From: an uncultured Clostridia bacterium
GTDB taxonomy: Bacteria > Bacillota > Clostridia > Christensenellales > Borkfalkiaceae
DNA: 64,000 bases
NCBI GenBank assembly: GCA_904419075.1
Contig: CAJFQM010000008.1
Coordinates: forward strand, 1 to 64,000
Direction of reading: 5' to 3'
Position numbers and translations under genes: made by a program. Positions 1,184 to 63,387 of the stretch are shown here, piece after piece; position 1 is the first letter of the stretch; each line of letters begins with the position of its first letter. The notes below the pieces were generated by a model. That model was not told where the DNA came from, did not search any database, and was given only the letters and a program-made list of their open reading frames with translations.

Positions 1184-1861
1184 ATGGAAAATGTAGTCAA
1201 AGTGCTGGTATTTTCGTTGTCGTCGTTCGCGTTTTTATTCATCGTGACGAAAATTCTCGGCAAAAAGCAAATTGCGGAGCTGAGTTTTATCGATTATGTC
1301 GTCGGGATTTCCATCGGATCCATCGCGGCGGAGTGGAGCACGGAGACGGAGGAGCCTTTTTATCATTTTCTCATCGCCATTTCTGTCTATTGCGTGCTGA
1401 GTCTCGTTCTCGATCTGATGGAGCGCAAGCGTCCGTTTCGGAAATTTTTGAAAGGAGAAGTTCTGACGATTATCGAGGAAGGAGAATTCAATTACGAAAA
1501 CTTAAAGAAGTCCAAGCTGGACGTGGAGGACGTGTTGGGCATGGCTCGGGAGAAGAATTTTTTCGACGTGAACGACATTGCCTTTGCGCTGTTCGAGACG
1601 ACGGGAAAACTGAGCATTCTGCCCAAAAGCGGTCAGCGCCCGACAGTGCTCAAAGATCTCGGGAAGAAAGAGGAGAGCGCATGTCCGCCCGATTACGTCA
1701 TCGTCAACGGAAAACCGCAGTATCGGGTAATCCGTGACCTGGGCGTTTCGGTGGAGGAGGTGTTCGAGCGGCTGAATATCCGTTCCAGGCGGGATCTGAA
1801 CGATATTTTGGTCGCGTCTTACGACGGGGAAAAGGGAGAATATCAGGTTCACAGGAAATAG
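1184..1861 (+). CDS. YetF/DUF421 family membrane protein
   Basis: A 225-residue protein with the DUF421 pattern: three N-terminal membrane helices (about residues 5-22, 35-50, 58-78) containing GKKQIAELSFIDYVVGISIG, then a soluble alpha/beta domain with LDVEDVLGMAREKNFFDVND and VIVNGKP. The length matches the family. In Bacillus, YetF-type proteins are linked to spore germination and the cell envelope, but the general function is unsettled. No good Shine-Dalgarno precedes ATG 1184, and the gap from the acetyltransferase is only 43 bp, so it probably depends on upstream transcription. Confidence 0.9.
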   Translation: MENVVKVLVFSLSSFAFLFIVTKILGKKQIAELSFIDYVVGISIGSIAAEWSTETEEPFYHFLIAISVYCVLSLVLDLMERKRPFRKFLKGEVLTIIEEGEFNYENLKKSKLDVEDVLGMAREKNFFDVNDIAFALFETTGKLSILPKSGQRPTVLKDLGKKEESACPPDYVIVNGKPQYRVIRDLGVSVEEVFERLNIRSRRDLNDILVASYDGEKGEYQVHRK

Positions 1862-1892
1862 CGAAGGCGGCGGAAAGTCGCCTTCCGTATTG

Positions 1893-1921
1893 TTGACAAA
1901 AACGAAAAAAAGTGGTATAAT
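1893..1921 (+). promoter_or_regulatory. Sigma-A promoter for the BFD-like gene
   Basis: A consensus TTGACA (1893-1898), a 17-bp spacer and consensus TATAAT (1916-1921), 35 bases before ATG 1957. Confidence 0.85.
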
Positions 1922-1956
1922 ACGGGCAGAAAAAACGAAGTAAGGAGCAAACCGAT

Positions 1957-2151
1957 ATGGAAAATCAAATCGTATGCAATTGTAAGCAGGTTTCGGTGGC
2001 GGATATAGAGAAAGCGTTACATACCCATGCGCGTTTCGACGACGTGGACAAAGAATTCGAAGAAGTGCAGCGCCTGACGAAATGTTCGACGGGCTGCGGC
2101 GGTTGTCACGACAAAATTTTGGACGTCATTTCTCAACTGATGAGCGAATAA
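1957..2151 (+). CDS. BFD-like [2Fe-2S]-binding protein
   Basis: A 64-residue protein. The four cysteines sit as CNC near residue 8 and CSTGCGGC near residue 48, the CxC...CxxxxCxxC layout of the BFD-like (bacterioferritin-associated ferredoxin) domain, with the helices of a helix-turn-helix-like fold between them. BFD proteins bind a [2Fe-2S] cluster and in proteobacteria reduce ferritin cores to release iron. It has its own promoter, a Shine-Dalgarno AAGGAG, and a terminator shared with the convergent ferritin gene. That neighbour makes a role in ferritin iron mobilisation attractive, though this is inference; many Clostridia carry stand-alone BFD domains. Confidence 0.85.
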   Translation: MENQIVCNCKQVSVADIEKALHTHARFDDVDKEFEEVQRLTKCSTGCGGCHDKILDVISQLMSE

Positions 2152-2156
2152 AAAAA

Positions 2157-2182
2157 GCCTGCCGAAAAATTTTCGGCAGGCG
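2157..2182. terminator. Terminator between the convergent BFD-like and ferritin genes
   Basis: A 12-bp stem (2157-2168 with 2170-2181) with a run of A on the left, which makes a T run on the minus strand. It is strong for ferritin and weaker, with TTTGTTTATTT, on the plus strand. Confidence 0.8.
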
Positions 2183-2197
2183 ATTTGTTTATTTAAG

Positions 2198-2707
2198 TCA
2201 AAGCACTAAGGACGGCGCGGAATAGACGCGGGCTTTCAGCTCGTTGTCCAGCATGTAAAGTCCCTTTGCGTCGGAGCCGAACAACTGCATTTTTGTGATG
2301 AGGTCGGAGGCATTCTTTTCCTCTTCGCCCTGTTCTTTTACAAACCAGTCGAGAAACTGCATCGTGCGGAAATCCTTGACGGCGTAAGCGGCCGCATAAA
2401 TGTCGTTGACGAGCGCTGTGACATATTTTTCGTGCGCCAAAGCGGCTTCCAGCACGTCTAAGTCCCTTTTTCCTTCCGTCTTGGGCGCGTCTATGATCCC
2501 CAGCGTTACGCTTTCTCCGTTATTGAGAAGATAGCGGTAAAATAGCATCGCATGGTCGCGTTCCTCCTGAGCCTGAACTTCGTACCAGTGCGCGAACCCC
2601 GAAAGTCCTCTCCGCTCGAAATAATTTGCGAAATCGAGATAGAGATATGCGGAATAAAATTCCTTGTTGATTTGTGCGTTGAGCAATTCCGAAACTTTTT
2701 TATCCAT
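2198..2707 (-). CDS. ftn: Ferritin (bacterial non-haem type)
   Basis: A 169-residue protein that oxidises Fe(II) and stores the iron inside a 24-mer cage. The start chosen is ATG 2707, preceded by AAAGGAG; longer upstream reading has no ribosome site. Ferroxidase ligands are visible: E in LNAQINKEFYSAYLYLDFA, E-x-x-H in VQAQEERDHAMLFYRYLL, E in AALAHEKYV and EQGEEEKNA near the fourth helix. The fifth short helix (DAKGLYMLDNEL) is present, so this is a ferritin rather than a Dps protein or bacterioferritin. It converges with a BFD-like ferredoxin that could reduce its core. Confidence 0.95.
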   Translation of the reverse strand: MDKKVSELLNAQINKEFYSAYLYLDFANYFERRGLSGFAHWYEVQAQEERDHAMLFYRYLLNNGESVTLGIIDAPKTEGKRDLDVLEAALAHEKYVTALVNDIYAAAYAVKDFRTMQFLDWFVKEQGEEEKNASDLITKMQLFGSDAKGLYMLDNELKARVYSAPSLVL

Positions 2708-2944
2708 CGTTCTTTTCTCCTTTCTCATTATATATAAACGGTTTTCGGCTCCTTGTAACATTTTTGGATAAACATTTTCTTGTTTCCGAAAATGTTTTTT
2801 ACTTTTTATGAATTGCATAAATTTATATGCGGGCTTAATCATATACCTTATTTTTTAAGCAATTTATTCAAAAATATTGTTTAGCATTTTAGAATAATTG
2901 ATAGACAAAAAGAATAAAATTTCAAAAATGATATTCAAAGATAT

Positions 2945-2974
2945 TTGACAACGGGCAGGGGAGTATGATATAAT
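2945..2974 (+). promoter_or_regulatory. Sigma-A promoter for the DMT permease operon
   Basis: TTGACA (2945-2950), an 18-bp spacer and TATAAT (2969-2974). The predicted leader to ATG 3085 is about 105 bases. Confidence 0.8.
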
Positions 2975-2993
2975 CGGAAAGAAAACAGGGGAA

Positions 2994-3024
2994 AGGTGCG
3001 CAAGGAGAACGGGCGCACCTTTTT
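2994..3024 (+). terminator. Terminator-like hairpin inside the DMT permease leader
   Basis: AGGTGCGC (2994-3001) pairs with GCGCACCT (3013-3020), followed by TTTTT (3020-3024). It begins about 13 bases after the expected transcription start and 60 bases before the permease start. That placement fits an attenuator or a short terminated RNA. Confidence 0.6.
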
Positions 3025-3084
3025 CGACGGAAAAATTTCCCCGAAAAATAAAAATAACCGGAGACGGGAAGGAGGAGCAAGAAA

Positions 3085-4269
3085 ATGAAGATCATTAAAA
3101 AGGTGACGGATAAGACGGGAAGGGGACTGAAATTTCTCTGTATCGGGTTATTGCTGTCGGTTACACTCATTTGGGGTTACGGAATCATCGCGACGGACGA
3201 CGCGCTGACGGGAAGCATGGGTATTTTCACCATGCTGGCCGTGCGTTTTCTGTTGGCGGCGGGAATTCTTTTCGTTTTGCGGCTCTGTCTTTTCCGCACG
3301 AAGGGGTATTCGAAAATCGGAAAGAAGGAAGTATGGACGGGGATTATCGTGGGAGCGGTGAATTTCTGTGGCTTTGCGTTCCAGTCCGAGGGGCTGTTGT
3401 ATACCGATACGGCAAAGAGCGGTATGCTGACGGGGGCCTATGTCATATTCGTGCCGATCATCTATTGCGTTCTGCGCAAAAAATTCCAATGGCGCCCGCT
3501 GTTTAATGCGCTGATTTTTCTCGTCGGCATGTTCTTTTTGTTCGACTTCCGCGGTTCGAACCTGAATTTCAACCGCGGCGATGCGCTCACGTTGCTCTGC
3601 GCCTGCTGCTTTGCGGTGCAAATTATTTTGGTGGACCGCTTTGCGAACGACATCAACGTTTTTAATTTCAATGCGGTGCAGATGTTGACGATGGGGCTTA
3701 TGGGACTGTTCGGGGCGCTTTTGTTCGAACGGCAGAATTTTGCCTTTATCGATTGGAGCGTAAGTCTCCCCGCGGTCATCTATTTGGGAGCGCTCAGCTC
3801 GGCCTATGCGTATATCGTCCAGACGTTTGCGCAGAGCCGCGTCTCGCCTTCTCTTACGGCGATTTTGCTCAGTCTGGAATCGTTGGCGGGTGTACTGTTT
3901 TCTCTGGCGGCGGGAAAAGTCGGCTGGACGTGGACGCTGGGCGTCGGCTGTGCGATTATGGCGGCGGCGTCGGTGGCGGCGGCGCTGAGGGATTCCGGAA
4001 CCGCGAAAACTTCGGGCGGAGCGGTACAGACGCGGAACCCGAAAACCGGAGAAACGGTGCCGACAGAGAAATCGGCGGGAGAGTCCGAACCGAACGGCCC
4101 CGAGCCATCGGCCGTCTTCGGGCGGTTGGAGCCGACGGCGGACTTCAAAGCGGAAGAAGGAGCCGGGCTTGCATCCGCGGAAGGATTTTTTGAAAGTTTT
4201 TCCGAGGAGGGAGTCGGCGCCTGTATGACGACGTACGGCCCCATGCCCGCTCGGAACGATAAACGATAA
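3085..4269 (+). CDS. DMT-superfamily (EamA) permease with a long hydrophilic tail
   Basis: A 394-residue protein. Residues about 18-300 form ten hydrophobic segments in two EamA repeats; LLSVTLIWGYGI opens the first and GDALTLLCACCFAVQIILVDRFA the second. LGALSSAYAYIVQTFAQSR is the usual late signature. Such permeases export or import small metabolites, and the substrate cannot be inferred. The last 95 residues are hydrophilic and rich in Gly, Glu, Pro and Ser, unlike ordinary family members of about 300 residues. The Shine-Dalgarno is AAGGAGGAG. The stop is 11 bases from the next start, so the two genes are probably co-transcribed. Confidence 0.9.
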   Translation: MKIIKKVTDKTGRGLKFLCIGLLLSVTLIWGYGIIATDDALTGSMGIFTMLAVRFLLAAGILFVLRLCLFRTKGYSKIGKKEVWTGIIVGAVNFCGFAFQSEGLLYTDTAKSGMLTGAYVIFVPIIYCVLRKKFQWRPLFNALIFLVGMFFLFDFRGSNLNFNRGDALTLLCACCFAVQIILVDRFANDINVFNFNAVQMLTMGLMGLFGALLFERQNFAFIDWSVSLPAVIYLGALSSAYAYIVQTFAQSRVSPSLTAILLSLESLAGVLFSLAAGKVGWTWTLGVGCAIMAAASVAAALRDSGTAKTSGGAVQTRNPKTGETVPTEKSAGESEPNGPEPSAVFGRLEPTADFKAEEGAGLASAEGFFESFSEEGVGACMTTYGPMPARNDKR

Positions 4270-11292: not shown

Positions 11293-12168
11293 ATGCTGAG
11301 CATGACGGGTTACGGAAAAGGCGAATACAAAGAGGGCGGCATCGAACTGACCTGCGAAATCAAGACGGTGAATAACCGCTATCTCGACGTATCGGTGAAG
11401 GCGCCCAGGATTTTTACCGCGTATGAGGACGTCATCCGCACGCTCGTCAGGGAGAAGCTCACCCGCGGTCACGCGGACGTGTTCGTGTCGTGTAAGGACA
11501 AACGGGAACGCCCCGCGGCGCTCGTGCCCGACATGCAGCTCGCCGCGTCGTACGTGGCGGCGGCGACGGCGCTGAAAGCGGCTTTTCCCGCTTTGGCGGA
11601 CGACGTGACTTTGACCTCCGTGCTCCGCTTTCCCGACGTATTGAAGCAGGACGAACAGGCCGCCGCGGACGAGGAGCTCCTCTCCGCATTGAAAAAGGCG
11701 CTTTCAGAGGCGCTCGACAATCTCAACCGCATGCGGAGGACGGAGGGCGAGAAGCTCAAAGCGGATATGCTTTCGAGAATGGACTCGATAGAGGCGCTCG
11801 CGAAAGAAATCGCGGCCCGCGCGCCGAAGGTGGCGGAGGAGTACCGCAAAAAGCTCGAAGAACGGGTTCGGGAATACCTTAAAGACGCGAACGCGGACGA
11901 GGGCAGGCTGCTCACGGAGGTCGCCGTCTTTGCGGATAGGAGCAACATTGACGAAGAACTGACGAGACTGTTTTCGCACATTTCCCAGTTCCGCTCGATT
12001 TGCGAGGAAGGAATCGTGGGGCGGAAGCTGGACTTTCTGGTTCAGGAGTTCAATCGGGAAGCGAACACGACCTGTTCCAAGAGCAACGATATCGAAATCA
12101 CGCGGACGGGTCTGGCGTTGAAGAACGAGATAGAGAAGGTGCGGGAGCAGGTGCAGAACCTGGAATAA
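11293..12168 (+). CDS. yicC: YicC-family endoribonuclease
   Basis: A 291-residue protein with the YicC N-terminal start MLSMTGYGKGEY, then CEIKTVNNRYLDVSVKAP. Its C-terminal DUF1732 part includes LLTEVAVFADRSNIDEELTRL and the strongly conserved GRKLDFLVQEFNREANT and CSKSNDIEITR. Family members are metal-dependent endoribonucleases involved in RNA decay in E. coli and Bacillus. Its place directly before gmk and rpoZ is the standard Firmicute arrangement. The short remA gene often found between yicC and gmk is not present: the gap to gmk is 34 bases. Confidence 0.95.
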   Translation: MLSMTGYGKGEYKEGGIELTCEIKTVNNRYLDVSVKAPRIFTAYEDVIRTLVREKLTRGHADVFVSCKDKRERPAALVPDMQLAASYVAAATALKAAFPALADDVTLTSVLRFPDVLKQDEQAAADEELLSALKKALSEALDNLNRMRRTEGEKLKADMLSRMDSIEALAKEIAARAPKVAEEYRKKLEERVREYLKDANADEGRLLTEVAVFADRSNIDEELTRLFSHISQFRSICEEGIVGRKLDFLVQEFNREANTTCSKSNDIEITRTGLALKNEIEKVREQVQNLE

Positions 12169-12202
12169 AGGCGCAATCCGCATTTGCAGAAAGGAATCAC
12201 GT

Positions 12203-12760
12203 ATGAAAAATATTCTGATGGCAATTTCCGGGCCTTCGGGAGTGGGCAAAGGCACGCTGGTGAAGGCGCTTTTGGCCCGCAGGAAGGACCTGATTGAATC
12301 GGTGTCTTGCACGACGCGGGCGCCGCGGAAAGGCGAACGGGACGGACGGGAATATTTCTTTTTGAAGAGAGAAGAATTTTTGAGCCGTATAGAAAAGGGC
12401 GATTTTCTCGAATACGACGAGCATTTCGGAAATTTCTACGGCACGCCGAAATCGTTCGTGAAAGAGGCTCTGAAAGAGAAATCCGTCATTCTGGAAATCG
12501 ACGTGGTGGGCGCTCTGAACGCGAAAAAGGCGTTTCCCGAATGTGTTCTCGTCATGATCGTCCCGCCGTCGGAGGAAGAGCTGAAAAGGCGCTTAAAGGG
12601 TCGGAATTCGGAGACGGACGAGGAGATCGAACGTCGGCTTTCGCGAATGGAATACGAATTTTCCAAAAAGGACGAATACGATTACATCGTAGTCAACGAC
12701 GCGCTGGACGGCGCGGAAAGCAAGCTGGAAGAAATCATCGATAAAGAAAAGAACCGATAA
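12203..12760 (+). CDS. gmk: Guanylate kinase
   Basis: A 185-residue enzyme phosphorylating GMP to GDP with ATP. It has the P-loop SGPSGVGKGTLV, GMP-binding SCTTRAPRKGERDGREYFF, GDFLEYDEHFGNFYGTP and VILEIDVVGA. Near the C-terminus the lid Arg residues (RLKGRNSETDEEIERRLSR) are intact. AAAGGAATC provides the ribosome site. It is part of the yicC-gmk-rpoZ transcription unit. Confidence 0.97.
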   Translation: MKNILMAISGPSGVGKGTLVKALLARRKDLIESVSCTTRAPRKGERDGREYFFLKREEFLSRIEKGDFLEYDEHFGNFYGTPKSFVKEALKEKSVILEIDVVGALNAKKAFPECVLVMIVPPSEEELKRRLKGRNSETDEEIERRLSRMEYEFSKKDEYDYIVVNDALDGAESKLEEIIDKEKNR

Positions 12761-12781
12761 GGCTTAAAGGAGTGTGAAATT

Positions 12782-13003
12782 ATGATAAACGAACCTGCTG
12801 TGGATGTATTGATCCGCGATTTGGGAACGGAGGAAGAACCCGTGAGCCGCTATGCGCTGTGCGTGGTGGCGTCCAAGCGCGCCCGCCAGATCATCGAGGC
12901 GGAAAAGAGCCGCGGCATCCGCGATTTTACGGGCATGGACAAAGAGCTTTTGGCCGCCTGCAAGGATATTGCGGAAGGCAAAGTCGTCATCGCCAAGGAT
13001 TGA
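12782..13003 (+). CDS. rpoZ: RNA polymerase omega subunit
   Basis: A 73-residue protein with the omega signature SRYALCVVASKRARQIIEA, where Lys-Arg-Ala-Arg-Gln contacts the beta-prime subunit, and KVVIAKD near the end. Omega helps assembly and folding of beta-prime and is the ppGpp-site partner in some bacteria. AAAGGAGTG is a strong ribosome site. coaBC, which follows rpoZ in Bacillus, is missing; instead 162 non-coding bases lead to priA. Confidence 0.95.
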   Translation: MINEPAVDVLIRDLGTEEEPVSRYALCVVASKRARQIIEAEKSRGIRDFTGMDKELLAACKDIAEGKVVIAKD

Positions 13004-13059
13004 CGGACGAAAAGGGAACAACGGACAAAGGCTTGGCCTTAAAAATGTATATTTTCGCG

Positions 13060-13082
13060 TTGCCTCGATTCAATCGGGGCAA
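13060..13082. other. Short inverted repeat between rpoZ and priA
   Basis: TTGCCTCGATT and AATCGGGGCAA can pair over about nine base pairs with a small loop. No T run follows, so it is not a convincing terminator. It may be an RNA processing or stability element. Confidence 0.3.
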
Positions 13083-13165
13083 TCCGTGTTTTTGGACATC
13101 GGAGAAAAAAAGGGGCTTTGCGCGGCGTTTCAGATCATTTTTACGGCGAAAAATCGGGATAATTT

Positions 13166-15340
13166 ATGATAGCGGAAGTCATCGTGGATATCGCTTCGGG
13201 CGAGACGGACAGGATATACGATTATCTGTGCGGGGACGAAACGCAGGCGGGCAGCCGTGTTCGGGTGCCCTTCGGCGGAAAGGTCGTCCCCGGTTTCGTC
13301 ATGCGCTTGAAGGAGACTTCCGACTGTCCGACGGAAAAGCTCAAACGCGCCTTTCCCTGTCCCGACGAACGCCCCGCCCTCAACACGGAATGTTTGGCTT
13401 TGGCGGGCAAGCTGGCGGCGCGGTACCGCGTGCCCATGGCGCTCTGTTTAAGGCTGTTTCTGCCCTCGGAAATGCGCGCGGGGAAGGTGAGGGAACTCAA
13501 AAAGAATTACGCCTCTCTCCTCGTCCCGCTCTCGGAAATGAAACTTTCGAGGACGGCGAAAAACCAGATCGGCGCGGCGGAATACCTCGAAAAGAACGGA
13601 AAGACGGAATGCGGATTTTTGAACGGCCTGTTTCCGGGCGGCGTGTCGGCGCTCGAAAAGAAAGGCTACGTATCCGTCGCCAAGGAGCAGATTCTCCGCG
13701 ACCCGTATAAGGGCATGGAGAGCGCTTCGGCCGAGCACGTCCTCACCGCGGACCAAAGGGCGGCGGTGGAGAAGATAAAGTCGGACGGACGGACGGTCCA
13801 GCTCTTGCACGGCGTGACGGGGAGCGGCAAGACGGAAATTTACCTCACGCTGATCGCGGAGTGCCTGAAAGAGGGCAAAAGCTCGATATTTCTGGTTCCC
13901 GAAATTTCTCTGACGCCGCAGATGCTGTCCCAGCTCCGCGCGCGGTTCGGTCGGAACGCGGCGATCATGCACAGCGGCCTGTCGGCGGGGGAGAAGTTCG
14001 ACGAATGGTGGAGAATGCGTTCGGGGGAGGCGAAAATCGCCATCGGCGCGCGGAGCGCCGTATTTTCGCCGCTGGAAAACCTCGGCGTCATCATCGTGGA
14101 CGAGGAGCACGATTCCAGCTATTCGAGCGAGACGGCGCCGAGATATAACACGTTCGACGTGGCGTATCTTCGGGCGAAGCATAACGGCTGTAAGCTGGTT
14201 CTCGGCAGCGCGACGCCCGCGGTGGATACCTATAAAAGGGCGGTGGACGGAGAATTCAATCTCATACGGCTGGATAAGAGAATCAATCAAAAGCCGCTTC
14301 CGGAAATCACGATTGCGGATATGCGCAGGGAGGTAAGGCGGGGGAACAATTCCGCGTTTTCCTCCGTACTCAAAGACGAGCTCGGCAAATGTCTTTCGGA
14401 GGGGAATCAGGCGATTTTGTTTCTCAACCGCCGCGGGTATTCCCAGACGGTCATCTGTAAGGAATGCGGCTATGTGGCGAAGTGCGAGGCGTGCGACGTG
14501 TCGCTCACCTATCATAAGGACGAGGACTGCCTGAAATGCCATTACTGCGGCGCGAAGTACCGCGTTCCGACGGTATGTCCCGACTGCGGCGGGCATAAAC
14601 TGTCCTATGCGGGGACGGGCACGCAAAGAATCGTGGCGGATTTGCAGAAGCTGTACCCTTCCGCAAAAATTCTCCGCATGGACAACGATACGACGAGCGG
14701 CAAAGAGGGGCATTATAAGATATTGAAGGCGTTCGGGGAGAAGCGCGCGGATATCCTCGTCGGGACGCAGATGATCGCCAAGGGGCACGATTTCCCGTCG
14801 GTGACGCTCGTGGGGATTCTCGACGCGGACATGAGCCTGCATTTTTCCGATTACCGCAGCGGGGAGCGCACGTTCCAGCTCATCACGCAGGTTGCGGGGC
14901 GGAGCGGCCGCGCGGAGGAAAAGGGCAGGGTGGTATTGCAGACGTTCAGTCCCGAAAACGACGTTTTGCGCTATGCGGTGGCTTACGATTACGAAGGGTT
15001 TTACCGCAACGAAATTTCCCTTCGCGCGGCGACGATGTTCCCGCCCTTTTCCAAAATCGTGCGGGTGCTGGTCACGGGCGAGGACAATAAAAAGACGGTG
15101 GAAGCGCTCAGAAACGTATATTTTTCGCTGGAAAGACTGTATACGGAAAACGCGGAAAAATTTTTGTTTTTCAACAAAATGCACGCTCCCATTAAACGCA
15201 TTCAGAATAAATTCCGCTATCAGGTGCTGATGCGGCTGGCGGATACGTCCGTTCTTCCCTCTGTATACGACGCCTGCGCGGCGGCAAGAACGCGCGACGT
15301 GCTCGTATCGGTGGAGGAAAACCCGACCAATCTTTCTTAA
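13166..15340 (+). CDS. priA: Primosomal protein N' (replication restart helicase)
   Basis: A 724-residue superfamily 2 helicase that reloads the replicative helicase on stalled forks. It opens with the DNA 3'-end-binding domain (IYDYLCGDETQAGSRVRVPF). Walker A HGVTGSGKTEIYL is near residue 217, and the DEEH box in IIVDEEHDSSY near 310. Eight zinc-binding cysteines lie at about 431-475 as CKECG, CEACD, CHYCG and CPDCGG. Motif VI includes QVAGRSGRAEEKGRV. No Shine-Dalgarno is seen before ATG 13166; GGATAATTT precedes it, so translation start efficiency is uncertain. Confidence 0.97.
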   Translation: MIAEVIVDIASGETDRIYDYLCGDETQAGSRVRVPFGGKVVPGFVMRLKETSDCPTEKLKRAFPCPDERPALNTECLALAGKLAARYRVPMALCLRLFLPSEMRAGKVRELKKNYASLLVPLSEMKLSRTAKNQIGAAEYLEKNGKTECGFLNGLFPGGVSALEKKGYVSVAKEQILRDPYKGMESASAEHVLTADQRAAVEKIKSDGRTVQLLHGVTGSGKTEIYLTLIAECLKEGKSSIFLVPEISLTPQMLSQLRARFGRNAAIMHSGLSAGEKFDEWWRMRSGEAKIAIGARSAVFSPLENLGVIIVDEEHDSSYSSETAPRYNTFDVAYLRAKHNGCKLVLGSATPAVDTYKRAVDGEFNLIRLDKRINQKPLPEITIADMRREVRRGNNSAFSSVLKDELGKCLSEGNQAILFLNRRGYSQTVICKECGYVAKCEACDVSLTYHKDEDCLKCHYCGAKYRVPTVCPDCGGHKLSYAGTGTQRIVADLQKLYPSAKILRMDNDTTSGKEGHYKILKAFGEKRADILVGTQMIAKGHDFPSVTLVGILDADMSLHFSDYRSGERTFQLITQVAGRSGRAEEKGRVVLQTFSPENDVLRYAVAYDYEGFYRNEISLRAATMFPPFSKIVRVLVTGEDNKKTVEALRNVYFSLERLYTENAEKFLFFNKMHAPIKRIQNKFRYQVLMRLADTSVLPSVYDACAAARTRDVLVSVEENPTNLS

Positions 15341-58143: not shown

Positions 58144-58168
58144 GGGAAGAATAAAGAAAGAGAAGTGT

Positions 58169-58200
58169 TTGAAAGTGCGCGAAAATGCGTTATATATAAT
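58169..58200 (+). promoter_or_regulatory. Candidate promoter for the sigma-factor operon
   Basis: TTGAAA (58169-58174) with TATATA (58191-58196, 16-bp spacer) overlapping TATAAT (58195-58200, 20-bp spacer). I see no clear sigma-B or sigma-F type promoter. Confidence 0.5.
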
Positions 58201-58229: not shown

Positions 58230-58538
58230 ATGAAGGAAGTGGAAATCAAGGGCGCGGAAGCGGGAAAATTGACCGTCGCTTTGAGCGGAGACATCGATTC
58301 GGGAAATGCGGACGAATTTTATTCCGACGTAATTTCGGCATACAGGCAAAATCCCGCGGATATCGTATTCGACTGCGCCGAACTGAATTTTATCGACAGC
58401 ACGACGTTGGGGACGTTCGTTAAGATTCTCAAAAACGCAAAGACGGACGGACATAATATCATTCTCAGAAATTTACAGCAGAAGATCAAAAAACTCTTTA
58501 TGATTTGTTCCCTGAATACGATTATGGAGATTGAATGA
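58230..58538 (+). CDS. STAS-domain anti-anti-sigma factor
   Basis: A 102-residue single STAS domain like SpoIIAA/RsbV. KLTVALSGDIDSGNADEFY is near the start, then IVFDCAELNFIDSTTLGTFVKIL, in which the Ser or Thr of DSTT is the expected phosphorylation site. The unphosphorylated protein would bind an anti-sigma kinase and free the sigma factor. AAAGGGAGG is the ribosome site. It is first of four tightly spaced genes ending with a HATPase. Confidence 0.93.
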   Translation: MKEVEIKGAEAGKLTVALSGDIDSGNADEFYSDVISAYRQNPADIVFDCAELNFIDSTTLGTFVKILKNAKTDGHNIILRNLQQKIKKLFMICSLNTIMEIE

Positions 58539-58897
58539 CCATGGAAAACTTTTGCGTTTCTTTGCCTTTATCCAGCGAATATCTTACGACGGTCCGGCTG
58601 ACTACCGGCGGACTTTGCGCGCTTTGCGGTTTCGACGTGGATTCGGCCGAGGATTTCAAAGTGTGCGTCACCGAAAGCCTCCTGATTCTCAAACGCAACG
58701 GGTTCCGCGCGGCCGATATTTCCTTCCGCACGGGCGAGTCGCTTGCCTGTACCGTTTCCGGCAAGGAAAAGGGGGAACCCGAAGAAAAAACGGCGGACGA
58801 CGACATTTCTTATGCGTTGTTGAATGCGCTTTTGGGAAATGCGGAATTTATAAAAGACAACGCAGGCACGGTACAGACCATCGCCTTTGAAGCGTGA
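58535..58897 (+). CDS. Degenerate RsbW/SpoIIAB-like protein
   Basis: A 120-residue protein overlapping the STAS stop by ATGA (ATG 58541 is an alternative start). Its N-terminal half (SLPLSSEYLTTVRLTTGGLC, then AEDFKVCVTESLLIL) matches RsbW helices. The kinase N-box, normally ExxxNAxxH, is ESLLILKRN here, with the Asn absent. A clear ATP-lid glycine motif is also missing. It probably binds the sigma factor or STAS protein without hydrolysing ATP, or it has lost function. Inference rests on residue alignment by eye. Confidence 0.7.
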   Translation: MTMENFCVSLPLSSEYLTTVRLTTGGLCALCGFDVDSAEDFKVCVTESLLILKRNGFRAADISFRTGESLACTVSGKEKGEPEEKTADDDISYALLNALLGNAEFIKDNAGTVQTIAFEA

Positions 58898-58916
58898 GCG
58901 GGACGGGTTTTCCATT

Positions 58917-59654
58917 ATGGCAGAAGAAACGATCAACGAGCTGTTCGAGCGATACAAAGAGACCGGTTCGAGGGAGCTGCGCAATAAAATCGCCGAAAAA
59001 TACCTCTACATAGCCGACATTCTCGCAAAAAAATTCGTGGGGCGGGGTGTGGAATACGACGATCTGAAACAGGTGGCTTCCCTCGCGCTGTTGAAGGGAA
59101 TCGACCGTTTCGATCCCTCTCTCGGCATGCAGTTTACCACTTTTATCACGCCTACCATCGCCGGAGAAATTAAAAACTATTTCAGGGACCGTTCCAGAAT
59201 TATCAAACTCCCTCGTCGGCTCAGCGAAATCAGCGCCTCCGTGCGCGAATTTTCCGCCGAATACGAAGGAAAAAACGGCTCAAAGCCCAGCATACGCGAG
59301 ATTGCCGACGGACTTTCGCTCTCGGAAGAAGAAGTCGTCCGCGCACTGGAAGTGGGCGGGACGGTCTCCCTCGACGGCGTGGCGAATTCGGGGGAGGACG
59401 ATTCCGAGCATTCCCTCTATGCGCTCCTGCCTGACAACGACGACAAATACGAGCGTCTCGAAATCAAAGACGCCCTGCGTTCGGCCATGAAGGATTTGTC
59501 CGATACGGAAAAGGCGCTGATCAAGTACCGCTACGGGGAAGAATTGTCCCAGAGCGAGACGGCCAAACGCTTGGGCGTTTCACAGATGTTCGTTTCGAGA
59601 ATGGAAAGAAAACTTTTGGCTAAACTCAAAGAAAATCTGAAAGATTCCGTCTGA
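58917..59654 (+). CDS. SigB/SigF/SigG-type RNA polymerase sigma factor
   Basis: A 245-residue sigma-70 family factor without region 1. Region 2: NKIAEKYLYIADILAKKF, GVEYDDLKQVASLALLKGIDRFDP, MQFTTFITPTIAGEIKNYFRD. Region 3: KPSIREIADGLSLSEEEVVRAL. Region 4: LSDTEKALIKYRYGEELSQS, then ETAKRLGVSQMFVSRMERKLL, the helix-turn-helix. Length and motifs match SigB and sporulation SigF/SigG. ATG 58917 is 20 bases past the previous stop with only a weak GGACGGG; a TTG at 58887 would add ten residues. Confidence 0.93.
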   Translation: MAEETINELFERYKETGSRELRNKIAEKYLYIADILAKKFVGRGVEYDDLKQVASLALLKGIDRFDPSLGMQFTTFITPTIAGEIKNYFRDRSRIIKLPRRLSEISASVREFSAEYEGKNGSKPSIREIADGLSLSEEEVVRALEVGGTVSLDGVANSGEDDSEHSLYALLPDNDDKYERLEIKDALRSAMKDLSDTEKALIKYRYGEELSQSETAKRLGVSQMFVSRMERKLLAKLKENLKDSV

Positions 59655-59680
59655 AAAACGGAAGTTTCGGGGGCAGAGAT

Positions 59681-60067
59681 ATGTTCGTGGAAGTAAAAAA
59701 TTTTGAAGCGCTGAGAGCGGCGATGAAACAGCTTTGCGACTTTCTCGAAGAACGCGACGTGCCTGAGGACAGCGTATTCGACAGCAAATTGGTGGTCAGC
59801 GAGCTCGTCAGCAACGTATTGCAGCACTCCGACGGAGCGGCTTTTCTGGAAGGCGAAATCCGCGGGAATTTTATCGAATTGAAGGTAAGTTCGACCGTGC
59901 GGTTTTGCCCGCCGGAAGAAAGCCGCTGTTCGGACGTATATGCCGAAAGCGGCCGCGGACTGTTTATCGTGGACAGCGTATGTACCGAGCGTTCCTTTAC
60001 GGAGGACGGGGGAATAAAAGTACTGATTAAAATTTCCGGAAGAGCGTCTCTGCCGGACGACGATTAA
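59681..60067 (+). CDS. HATPase_c_2 anti-sigma kinase (RsbW/SpoIIAB-like)
   Basis: A 128-residue GHKL-fold protein. The N-box VSELVSNVLQHS near residue 42 keeps the Glu and Asn that bind Mg-ATP, and SGRGLFIVD near 90 supplies the glycine-rich G2 box. The overall pattern is that of an anti-sigma serine kinase. It lies 26 bases after the sigma gene with GGGGGCAGAG as ribosome site, and closes the operon at a strong terminator. It is the intact counterpart of the degenerate gene at 58535. Confidence 0.9.
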   Translation: MFVEVKNFEALRAAMKQLCDFLEERDVPEDSVFDSKLVVSELVSNVLQHSDGAAFLEGEIRGNFIELKVSSTVRFCPPEESRCSDVYAESGRGLFIVDSVCTERSFTEDGGIKVLIKISGRASLPDDD

Positions 60068-60097
60068 ACGTCCTCCGTACGGAGGACGTTGTTTTTT
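60067..60097 (+). terminator. Terminator of the sigma-factor operon
   Basis: A 24-base perfect palindrome (60067-60090, arms AACGTCCTCCGT/ACGGAGGACGTT) overlapping the final stop, followed by GTTTTTTG. Confidence 0.85.
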
Positions 60098-61746: not shown

Positions 61747-63387
61747 TTATTTTCTGATCGCGAACTGATACATCTTGGACAGCAGGGAATCGGGAATTCT
61801 GTCTCTGTACTGACCGAGATAAATGAACACTTTGCGGAAGAATTCCGTATTGTCTCCGCCGACCTGATAGTCGGGAAGGTTCTTCGTGTCGCCTTTATAT
61901 TTAAGAATAAAGATTTCCGTGAACTGTTCTCTTTCCGTGCTGTTGAGCGAAGCGATAAACGGATCAAAACTCCTGCTGTTATAGAAGTCGTAATCCGCCG
62001 TGGCACCGGCTGCACTCGGTTTCTCCGCTTCGGGCGCAGTGCAGTTGCAAATGGGCGTCTGCTGCGTCGCGGTTTCTTCCGTGACGGTGCTCGTCTCTTC
62101 CTGAGCGGGAGTCTCGGCTTCCGCCGTTTCGAGCGTCGTTTCTTCCTGAGCGATGGAGCCTTCGTAACGAACGGCTTCCGCATATACACCGGTTTCGTTT
62201 TCCGATTCGGTCGTTTTGCTCGTCTCTTCCGCCGTTTCCGAAACGGGAGCGGTTTCTTCGACTTTCGTCGTTTCTTCTGCCGCGGAAAGGGCAGCGGCTT
62301 TCTTGGCCTTCTTACGAACACAGATGACCGCTATCGCGAGTATGATCTGCACGAGTGCGATCGCCGCAGCGATAAACGCGAACAAATACGCGTCTTCAAA
62401 CGCCGTTACGGTAAACGCCACATAAATGAACAGTCCCGCAAGGAGAAGGTGGAGAATATAACGCACGAGGTCGAACGTATAACCTTTCTTGGTGGAAAGG
62501 CGGATGGAGGAAACCGCAGCCGCAAGACCGAGGAAAACGCAGAGTGCGACGAGCGCGTATTTATAGAACTGACCTTCCGTCACGCCGGAAATGATGCTGT
62601 CCTCCGCGGAACCCATCAATTCCTTGATGCCGTCCGCGCAGTTGATGATTCCGTATACGGTCACGCCGGCAAAACCGACCGTAAGGATAAACAGGAGAAG
62701 CGTCATCCAAGCGCCCTTGCCCGTCTTGACAAAGGAAAGAATCAGATAGATGACAAAGCAGACGGCGGCAATCGCGATCATCGCGACGTCGAACGTTCTG
62801 TCGAGAGAAGCGCTGTAAAGGGATACGGCCGTGATTGCGACGGCATATGCGCCGAACGCCCAGAAATAGACGAACAGGATCGCTCTCGTCATCGCGGGCG
62901 CCGCTTTGCCCGAGCAGAGCGCGATAACCATAAATACAATCGCGAGAATCGCCGCTATGGGAAGGGCATACACCACGAGGCTCATCGCTTTGCCCAGCGC
63001 GCCGGTTCCGGCGAGCACGGGAATTCCTTTCAGCGTATACGAATCAAACCCGGACGTCGCCGCCCCGGAAATCGTTTTGGCTACTTCTGCATAAAACTCC
63101 GCAAGGCCGTCTTTCTTGAACAGCGCGAGAAATGCGTCGAGAATCGTCTCTTTGCCATAGAAAGCATAGCCCGCGGACGTGCTGACCAGCAGTTTCACGG
63201 GCAATAAGCACAGGCAGACGATCGGCGCGATCGTCAAAATCAGCGCGAGAATACGATAGCCGATATTCTTTTGCTTTTTGGGCGCGGCTTCGGCCGCTGC
63301 GGGAGCGGACGTTCCTTCGGCGAGCACTTCTTTCATGTCGTCGTTGGTCACGTTGAGCTCGGCATAATTGGTGCTGGTATTGCTCAT
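61747..63387 (-). CDS. Eight-helix membrane protein with acidic linker, unknown function
   Basis: 546 residues. The first 40 are polar (NTSTNYAELNVTNDDMKEVL). Eight hydrophobic segments lie between about residues 43 and 375. Residues 385-465 are Glu/Thr/Ala-rich and disordered-looking (VEETAPVSETAEETSKTTES). The C-terminal 80 residues are a soluble helical domain (FDPFIASLNSTEREQFTEIF, then DNTEFFRKVFIYLGQYRDR). I recognise no family. GGAG lies before ATG 63387 and a consensus promoter is upstream. Confidence 0.8.
   Translation of the reverse strand: MSNTSTNYAELNVTNDDMKEVLAEGTSAPAAAEAAPKKQKNIGYRILALILTIAPIVCLCLLPVKLLVSTSAGYAFYGKETILDAFLALFKKDGLAEFYAEVAKTISGAATSGFDSYTLKGIPVLAGTGALGKAMSLVVYALPIAAILAIVFMVIALCSGKAAPAMTRAILFVYFWAFGAYAVAITAVSLYSASLDRTFDVAMIAIAAVCFVIYLILSFVKTGKGAWMTLLLFILTVGFAGVTVYGIINCADGIKELMGSAEDSIISGVTEGQFYKYALVALCVFLGLAAAVSSIRLSTKKGYTFDLVRYILHLLLAGLFIYVAFTVTAFEDAYLFAFIAAAIALVQIILAIAVICVRKKAKKAAALSAAEETTKVEETAPVSETAEETSKTTESENETGVYAEAVRYEGSIAQEETTLETAEAETPAQEETSTVTEETATQQTPICNCTAPEAEKPSAAGATADYDFYNSRSFDPFIASLNSTEREQFTEIFILKYKGDTKNLPDYQVGGDNTEFFRKVFIYLGQYRDRIPDSLLSKMYQFAIRK

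Follow-up and report, generated by a model that had tools for sequence, protein, structure and literature searches.

Gene content of the locus

The stretch of DNA analysed here (64,000 nucleotides, hereafter the window) belongs to a 2.33 Mb genome in 38 contigs that is 94% complete. Judged by the identity of the protein called P2 below, its closest named relatives are Candidatus Scatosoma pullistercoris (69%) and Candidatus Scatosoma pullicola (68%), a genus that is assigned to Clostridia incertae sedis in NCBI. Four genes, P1 to P4, follow one another head to tail on the forward strand between 58230 and 60067, and the features of the locus are as follows:

58167..58196, +, predicted SigB-type promoter, GTTTGA-N15-CGTTAT (within GTTTGAAAGTGCGCGAAAATGCGTTATATA), 63 nt upstream of the initial ATG
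58230..58538, +, P1, STAS anti-sigma antagonist, RsbV/SpoIIAA-like (PF01740, E 7.2e-16; TIGR00377, 61.4 bits)
58535..58897, +, P2, RsbW-fold protein in which N, G1 and G2 are all missing, candidate anti-sigma factor
58917..59654, +, P3, sigma factor of the SigB/SigF/SigG family (TIGR02980, E 1.2e-63; Pfam sigma regions)
59681..60067, +, P4, RsbW-fold kinase candidate (PF13581, HATPase_c_2, E 2.2e-7, 31.4 bits)
60067..60090, +, terminator-like hairpin, then GTTTTTTG, directly 3' of P4

Pfam and NCBIfam scans agreed with the original prediction of four consecutive forward-strand genes encoding a STAS protein, an RsbW-like protein, a sigma factor of the SigB/F/G family and a HATPase_c_2 protein, and the frames of P1 and P2 share 4 nt. 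The end first given for the operon, 60097, extends past P4 and takes in the hairpin at 60067-60090. Terminator-like sites between 58000 and 60200 numbered 2 against 3.0 expected from shuffles, a count that is weak by itself, so the case for a terminator is its position right after P4. Further downstream, a 546-aa frame on the reverse strand (61747-63387) with many hydrophobic stretches and a Ser/Thr/Glu-rich part had zero Pfam families above the cut-off.

Both matches of P1 lie above their cut-offs (53.45 bits for TIGR00377), and the Ser that is predicted to be phosphorylated, as in the antagonist of a SigB-type switch, lies within FIDSTTLG and is kept in 83/83 P1 proteins. P3 starts with ATG, with an alternative TTG possible at 58887. 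Its best family by far is TIGR02980, but the score of 214.9 bits falls below the cut-off of 234.35; Pfam sigma regions 2 and 4 are both above theirs.

P2 has lost the nucleotide-binding motifs

P2 gave no Pfam match at E values up to 1 and matched the NCBIfam RsbW family (E 2.4e-6) over residues 5-49 only. The original prediction took P2, an RsbW-like protein without the N-box Asn, for a likely pseudokinase, an idea that would fall if P2 did not fold as GHKL or if its relatives kept the residue. The predicted fold is GHKL (pLDDT 92), and the Asn is present in 0/85 relatives and in 0/37 proteins of a wider, overlapping set, compared with 8/8 canonical proteins (L171 was excluded from the canonical rows for its over-long frame). 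The G1 and G2 motifs are missing too. With none of the three motifs in the RsbW-like protein before the sigma gene, the operon is not filed as a classic RsbV-RsbW-SigB module.

Other residues of P2 are conserved. R21, D40 and E47 are each kept in 85/85 relatives and position 42 is Lys or Arg in 37/37; R21, D40, E47 and Lys42 align with RsbW Arg23, Asp42, Glu49 and Lys44, which are in contact with RsbV (PMC7340262). R21, D40 and E47 persist also in lineages without a STAS gene, so their retention is no proof that P2 docks a STAS protein. A site common to STAS and sigma would explain why they are kept there.

P4 retains part of a kinase site

P4 scored above the PF13581 cut-off of 27.4 bits, its AlphaFold model has a pLDDT of 89, and its top Foldseek match is RsbW (6m37_C, E 1.3e-6). 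Among 83 P4 proteins all have the Glu, and 82 have both the N-box Asn and the GRG of G2, L040 being the sole exception. The original prediction of an intact kinase was right about the N-box and G2 and failed at G1, where P4 of the window reads KVSSTVRF: DxGxG occurs at G1 in only two of the 83 (L039 and L041) and in 0/79 close relatives, the window included, a match of the pattern in L042 falling within G2 and not being scored. P4 of the window thus does not combine N, G1 and G2 as a GHKL kinase does, and an intact kinase was rejected. Of 17 P4 proteins compared from outside the family, 13 have an intact G1 along with N and G2 (L039, L041, L139-L142, L149-L154 and L175); in L040, L042, L158 and L173 G1 is not intact. 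An Arg at the docking position was found in 0/17 P4 proteins compared in the motif alignment.

Since G1 is missing in 79/79 close relatives, kinase activity of P4 is not assured, and P4 may be a dead kinase that serves as a second binding protein or as heterodimer partner of P2, with another kinase (e.g. SpoIIAB of the same genome) acting on P1. Besides the loss of G1, P4 has a shorter G1-G2 interval than L039 and L041 (by eye), and RsbW3 of Mycobacterium smegmatis has been proposed to work via heterodimer formation (PMC7693655). Against this stand the retained Glu, Asn and GRG of G2, which would be superfluous for a dead enzyme, and the intact G1 in most P4 proteins outside the family; I consider a dead P4 unlikely, if worth keeping in mind. 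Judging from its motifs, P4 is the better kinase candidate than P2.

The pattern of motif retention in P2 and P4 indicates that each keeps a complementary part of RsbW. The duplication of a whole module, one of two readings first offered for the extra gene, was not seen; the other, that binding and kinase activity have gone to separate proteins, has support from both sequence and fold.

The operon is conserved beyond its genus

P2 was found in 35/36 congeners searched, the exception being G003 (67% complete), and the order P1-P2-P3-P4, which the original prediction had proposed to look for in related genomes, recurred in 117 of 122 P2-bearing stretches, some genomes being counted twice. The arrangement therefore goes beyond chance. 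The remaining five comprise three contig ends (L024, L099, L125), one over-long frame (L119) and one stretch of family f23 (L043). Both P2 and P4 have lost motifs, as would be expected of remnants of RsbW genes heading for loss, but their frames are conserved and their residues invariant across dozens of genomes and several families, and P2 has a confidently predicted fold; ordinary decay is hardly credible, and a pseudogene was rejected on the conservation of frames, order and residues across relatives.

A P2 profile search of 297 genomes of the order returned matches at E 1e-6 in 110 genomes, with a gap between strong matches of at least 53 bits (71 matches in 69 genomes) and SpoIIAB-like matches of at most 39 bits; 40 further loci were added, 14 of them beyond the order. 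Families f4 and f23 have P2 and sigma alone (L043, L144-L148, L155-L157, L174 and L176), STAS and P4 being absent within the fetched stretches, and such pairs may represent a sigma factor with a nucleotide-blind holder whose release partner is not visible nearby. HATPase_c_2 genes do occur elsewhere in genomes of these families (13 matches in G058). Beyond the order, four loci (L159, L160, L161 and L163) have STAS, an N-box-less P2 and sigma without P4 in the fetched stretch, so a kinase is elsewhere or missing.

STAS and P4 were both present in 30 of 42 order-level loci and both absent in 11; one locus had STAS alone (L143, with an odd STAS) and none had P4 alone. These 42 loci were hand-chosen, one genome is represented twice (L045 and L116), L175 was left out because its contig begins within P2, and absence was judged in the fetched stretches only. 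The co-loss corresponds to a small number of independent events, 4 and 5 changes, with one independent pair on well-supported branches. In the sigma tree, systems with an N-less P2 form one group (93/92) with the canonical systems outside, and the clade of the order has a support of 92/94. As neither value reaches the strong-support mark, loss of the N-box in a single event is likely and not proven.

Two further observations concern the surroundings of the operon. L050 (G006:C98) carries two copies of it, at 1780-3551 and 12126-13897, which run in opposite directions with roughly 10 kb between them and show the same identity to the window proteins, and a similar doubling is seen at L103/L104; the doubling on L050 is perhaps an assembly artefact or a true inverted repeat. 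In other families the operon seems to be located near cell-division genes: frames that I take, by eye, to be HlyD-like and YggS/YlmE-like lie 3' of it in L041, L042, L039 and L043, and a presumably SepF-like frame, also named by eye, follows it in L041 and L042.

A SigB-type promoter motif recurs before stress genes

The pattern GTTTRAA-N12/13-GYGKTATA was found 50-96 nt 5' of P1 in 61/79 loci, compared with a mean of 0.84 and a maximum of 3 in 300 shuffles; the GTTT and G(G/T)TA letters were set by the regular expression and their invariance is no result. Of the 18 loci without a match, some differ in one fixed base, L116 and L118 lack the motif, and the stretch of L108 is cut. As a control, 46 of 4376 chunks of 140 nt from the same loci matched, the operon sites among them. 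A SigB-type promoter is thus predicted before the operon in most loci, as autoregulation by P3 would have it. Read as GTTTRA-N14/15-BGKTAT, the motif fits two published SigB consensus sequences, GTTTAA-N15(+-2)-GGGTAT for Bacillus subtilis (PMC9847131) and WGWTT-N13-17-(G/T)GGTWA for Clostridioides difficile (PMC7494833).

With the refined pattern, the site at 58167 is the only match in the window and one of 3 in the genome. When a looser pattern was run on this genome, pattern and control had 3 matches each; with the stricter one the numbers were 3 and 0, the three sites lying before the operon, a CobW-type GTPase gene and a thioredoxin gene. The SufC-like gene of this genome had no match to the regular expression; by eye, it has a one-mismatch form, GGTTGA-N14-GGGTAT. 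A long repeat rich in His and Cys (HHEHHHDDEECC...) suggests that the CobW-type GTPase (L199, G000:C5 near 103568) binds metal.

In 57 congeners the strict form gave 98 matches, compared with 14 for a reversed control pattern. The sites lie before the operon (28), grpE (22), a SufC-like ABC ATPase (22), a membrane protein without Pfam match (6), a CobW-type GTPase (3), DUF1858 proteins (2) and singletons (13, one of them the thioredoxin of the window's genome), with no ORF at 2. Classification was by fetched sequence for 81 sites and by identity with operon promoters for 17, groups were defined by BLAST clustering, and one member each of the grpE, SufC-like, CobW, DUF1858, thioredoxin and membrane protein groups was scanned against Pfam. 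The SufC-like ABC ATPase scored 125.9 bits, below the SufC cut-off of 212.8; in L205 its gene is followed by that of a SufBD-core protein, and comparable frames occur in L209, L218 and L227. The membrane-like protein lies behind the promoter in six congeners (L213, L233, L249, L254, L264 and L274), a Pfam scan of L213 being without match, and is a possible member of the stress regulon.

The motif might instead be a variant of a sigma-A promoter and say nothing about P3, given the partial likeness, judged by eye, of GTTTGAAA to TTGACA and of TATATA to TATAAT. Such a general promoter is at odds with the number of matches (some 1.7 per genome) and with their positions, 83 of the 98 being before six recurring gene families including the sigma operon, as well as with the agreement with the SigB consensus of B. 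subtilis (PMC9847131) and with a sigma-70 scan that gave no forward-strand site at the motif; a sigma-A origin is improbable.

The motif is chiefly characteristic of the genus. Among sister genera, 18 operon-bearing genomes were searched and 8 of them had matches, 10 in all; two lie upstream of Hsp20 genes, one upstream of a ferritin gene and none upstream of the operon. Operon-less genomes gave 1 match in 3 of the family and 0 in 10 of the order. No clear motif was seen upstream of the operon in families outside f1. One sister-genus genome (G260) has three near-identical promoter-like sites (L280, L289 and L290) before frames with a common N-terminus (MNKKLINKILEKLKTEQ...), which look as if spread by a repeat family.

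Stress control more probable than sporulation

The original prediction saw no other sporulation gene and regarded stress control as just as plausible as sporulation. The first statement holds for the window but not for the genome, which has a canonical spoIIA-type operon (G000:C17), two Spo0A_C proteins (G000:C1:210249 and G000:C15:1975) and, in a frame of 1017 codons, a protein with a SpoIIE domain. Among 36 congeners, many of them incomplete, one Spo0A_C match was found in 22, none in 13 and three in 1. The presence of these genes, and the place of P3 within the SigB/F/G family, would suit a second sporulation or germination switch of the spoIIA type. The genome, however, already has its separate spoIIA-type operon, P2 is not the intact kinase that SpoIIAB is, and the SigB-like promoter recurs before grpE, SufC-like, CobW-type and thioredoxin genes, with Hsp20 and ferritin genes added in sister genera. 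A sporulation switch is very unlikely and was rejected on the strength of the spoIIA-type operon elsewhere and the stress-type genes behind the motif; of the two roles, stress is the better supported, and its parity with sporulation was not upheld.

A candidate PAS-PP2C phosphatase accompanies P2 within the family

RsbP, a phosphatase of the SigB pathway, has a PAS-PP2C layout, and a protein of this layout is encoded in the window's genome:

G000:C9:50713-51798, PAS-PP2C phosphatase, 362 residues, not linked to the operon (SpoIIE domain, 1.7e-30; PAS_8, 4.8e-5)

The protein retains the PP2C motifs, and its PAS part has four Cys that are conserved in the 14 readable family rows (by eye; L179, L182 and L187, whose frames were wrong, were excluded from the alignment counts). 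Within the family and the same set of 297 genomes, the phosphatase was found in 19/20 P2-bearing genomes and 0/3 P2-lacking ones; the operon-bearing congener G303 had no phosphatase match. Outside the family there were 7 weaker matches at E 1e-20, 3 in genomes with and 4 in genomes without a strong P2 match.

Proposed mechanism

In gut Clostridia near Candidatus Scatosoma, the two jobs of RsbW appear to be divided between two degenerate RsbW relatives. P2, a descendant of RsbW that has lost its nucleotide site, would bind and hold the SigB-like P3. P4, or less likely another kinase, would keep P1 phosphorylated on its conserved Ser, and phosphorylated P1 would be unable to dock on P2, so that P3 stays held. 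Under stress, the PAS-PP2C protein, with its four conserved Cys as a putative redox sensor, would most likely dephosphorylate P1, which could then dock on P2 and release P3. Free P3 would read GTTTRA-N14/15-BGKTAT before its own operon and the CobW-type GTPase and thioredoxin genes in the window's genome; in congeners its targets would mainly be grpE and the SufC/SufBD-type pair. SigB of C. difficile reportedly has radical-detoxifying targets.

For this proposal as a whole, with P2 as holder, P1 as antagonist, P4 as probable kinase, the PAS-PP2C protein as phosphatase and P3 as stress sigma factor, I estimate a probability of roughly 0.7. A bolder version is tentative and rather doubtful: that RsbW has been split into two halves within one operon, a nucleotide-blind anti-sigma factor (P2) and a kinase without the adenine-binding Asp of GHKL proteins and with possibly relaxed nucleotide use (P4), and that the switch, driven by the Cys4-PAS phosphatase, is a general control of redox and protein-folding stress across a large group of uncultured anaerobic gut Clostridia.

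Comparison with known systems

Classically, holding the sigma factor and phosphorylating the antagonist are the work of a single protein, whose ATP/ADP state forms part of the control. A natural, conserved system that seemingly assigns the two tasks to separate proteins reveals the residues that serve each of them, and raises the question of how switching is achieved by a holder blind to nucleotide. It also offers a stress regulon that can be tested (operon, grpE, SUF-type genes) for a group of gut Clostridia known here almost entirely from metagenome assemblies.

The order of STAS, RsbW-fold and SigB-family sigma genes is that of RsbV-RsbW-SigB in B. subtilis, as are the predicted SigB-type promoter before the operon and the RsbP-like layout of the candidate PAS-PP2C phosphatase in the genome. 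RsbW of B. subtilis, however, is anti-sigma factor and kinase in one, whereas here the nucleotide motifs are absent from P2 and the sigma gene has a second RsbW-fold gene behind it. The first three genes likewise share order and folds with spoIIAA-spoIIAB-sigF, but SpoIIAB is an intact kinase and the spoIIA-type operon of this genome is separate. As in C. difficile (PMC7494833; PMC10210984), a SigB-like sigma factor occurs in an anaerobe, and the promoter consensus is similar.

The separation of anti-sigma factor and kinase is already known from the SigF switch of M. smegmatis (RsbW1, RsbW2 and RsfB), in which RsbW1 is the anti-sigma factor and RsbW2 the kinase that phosphorylates the Ser of the STAS protein (PMC7693655). 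There, too, the tasks lie on two RsbW homologs, a division that motifs and folds suggest here. To judge from their gene numbers, RsbW1 (MSMEG_1803) and RsbW2 (MSMEG_6129) are far apart, and all of N, G1 and G2 are retained in RsbW2, whereas here both genes lie in one operon, P4 lacks G1 and the anti-sigma candidate P2 lacks the nucleotide motifs. No description of the four-gene form was found in the literature among the matches listed, subscription journals being mostly outside the coverage. What is new, then, is a single operon with the kinase candidate 3' of the sigma gene, an anti-sigma candidate stripped of its nucleotide motifs, a kinase candidate stripped of G1 in one family, and the predicted regulon.
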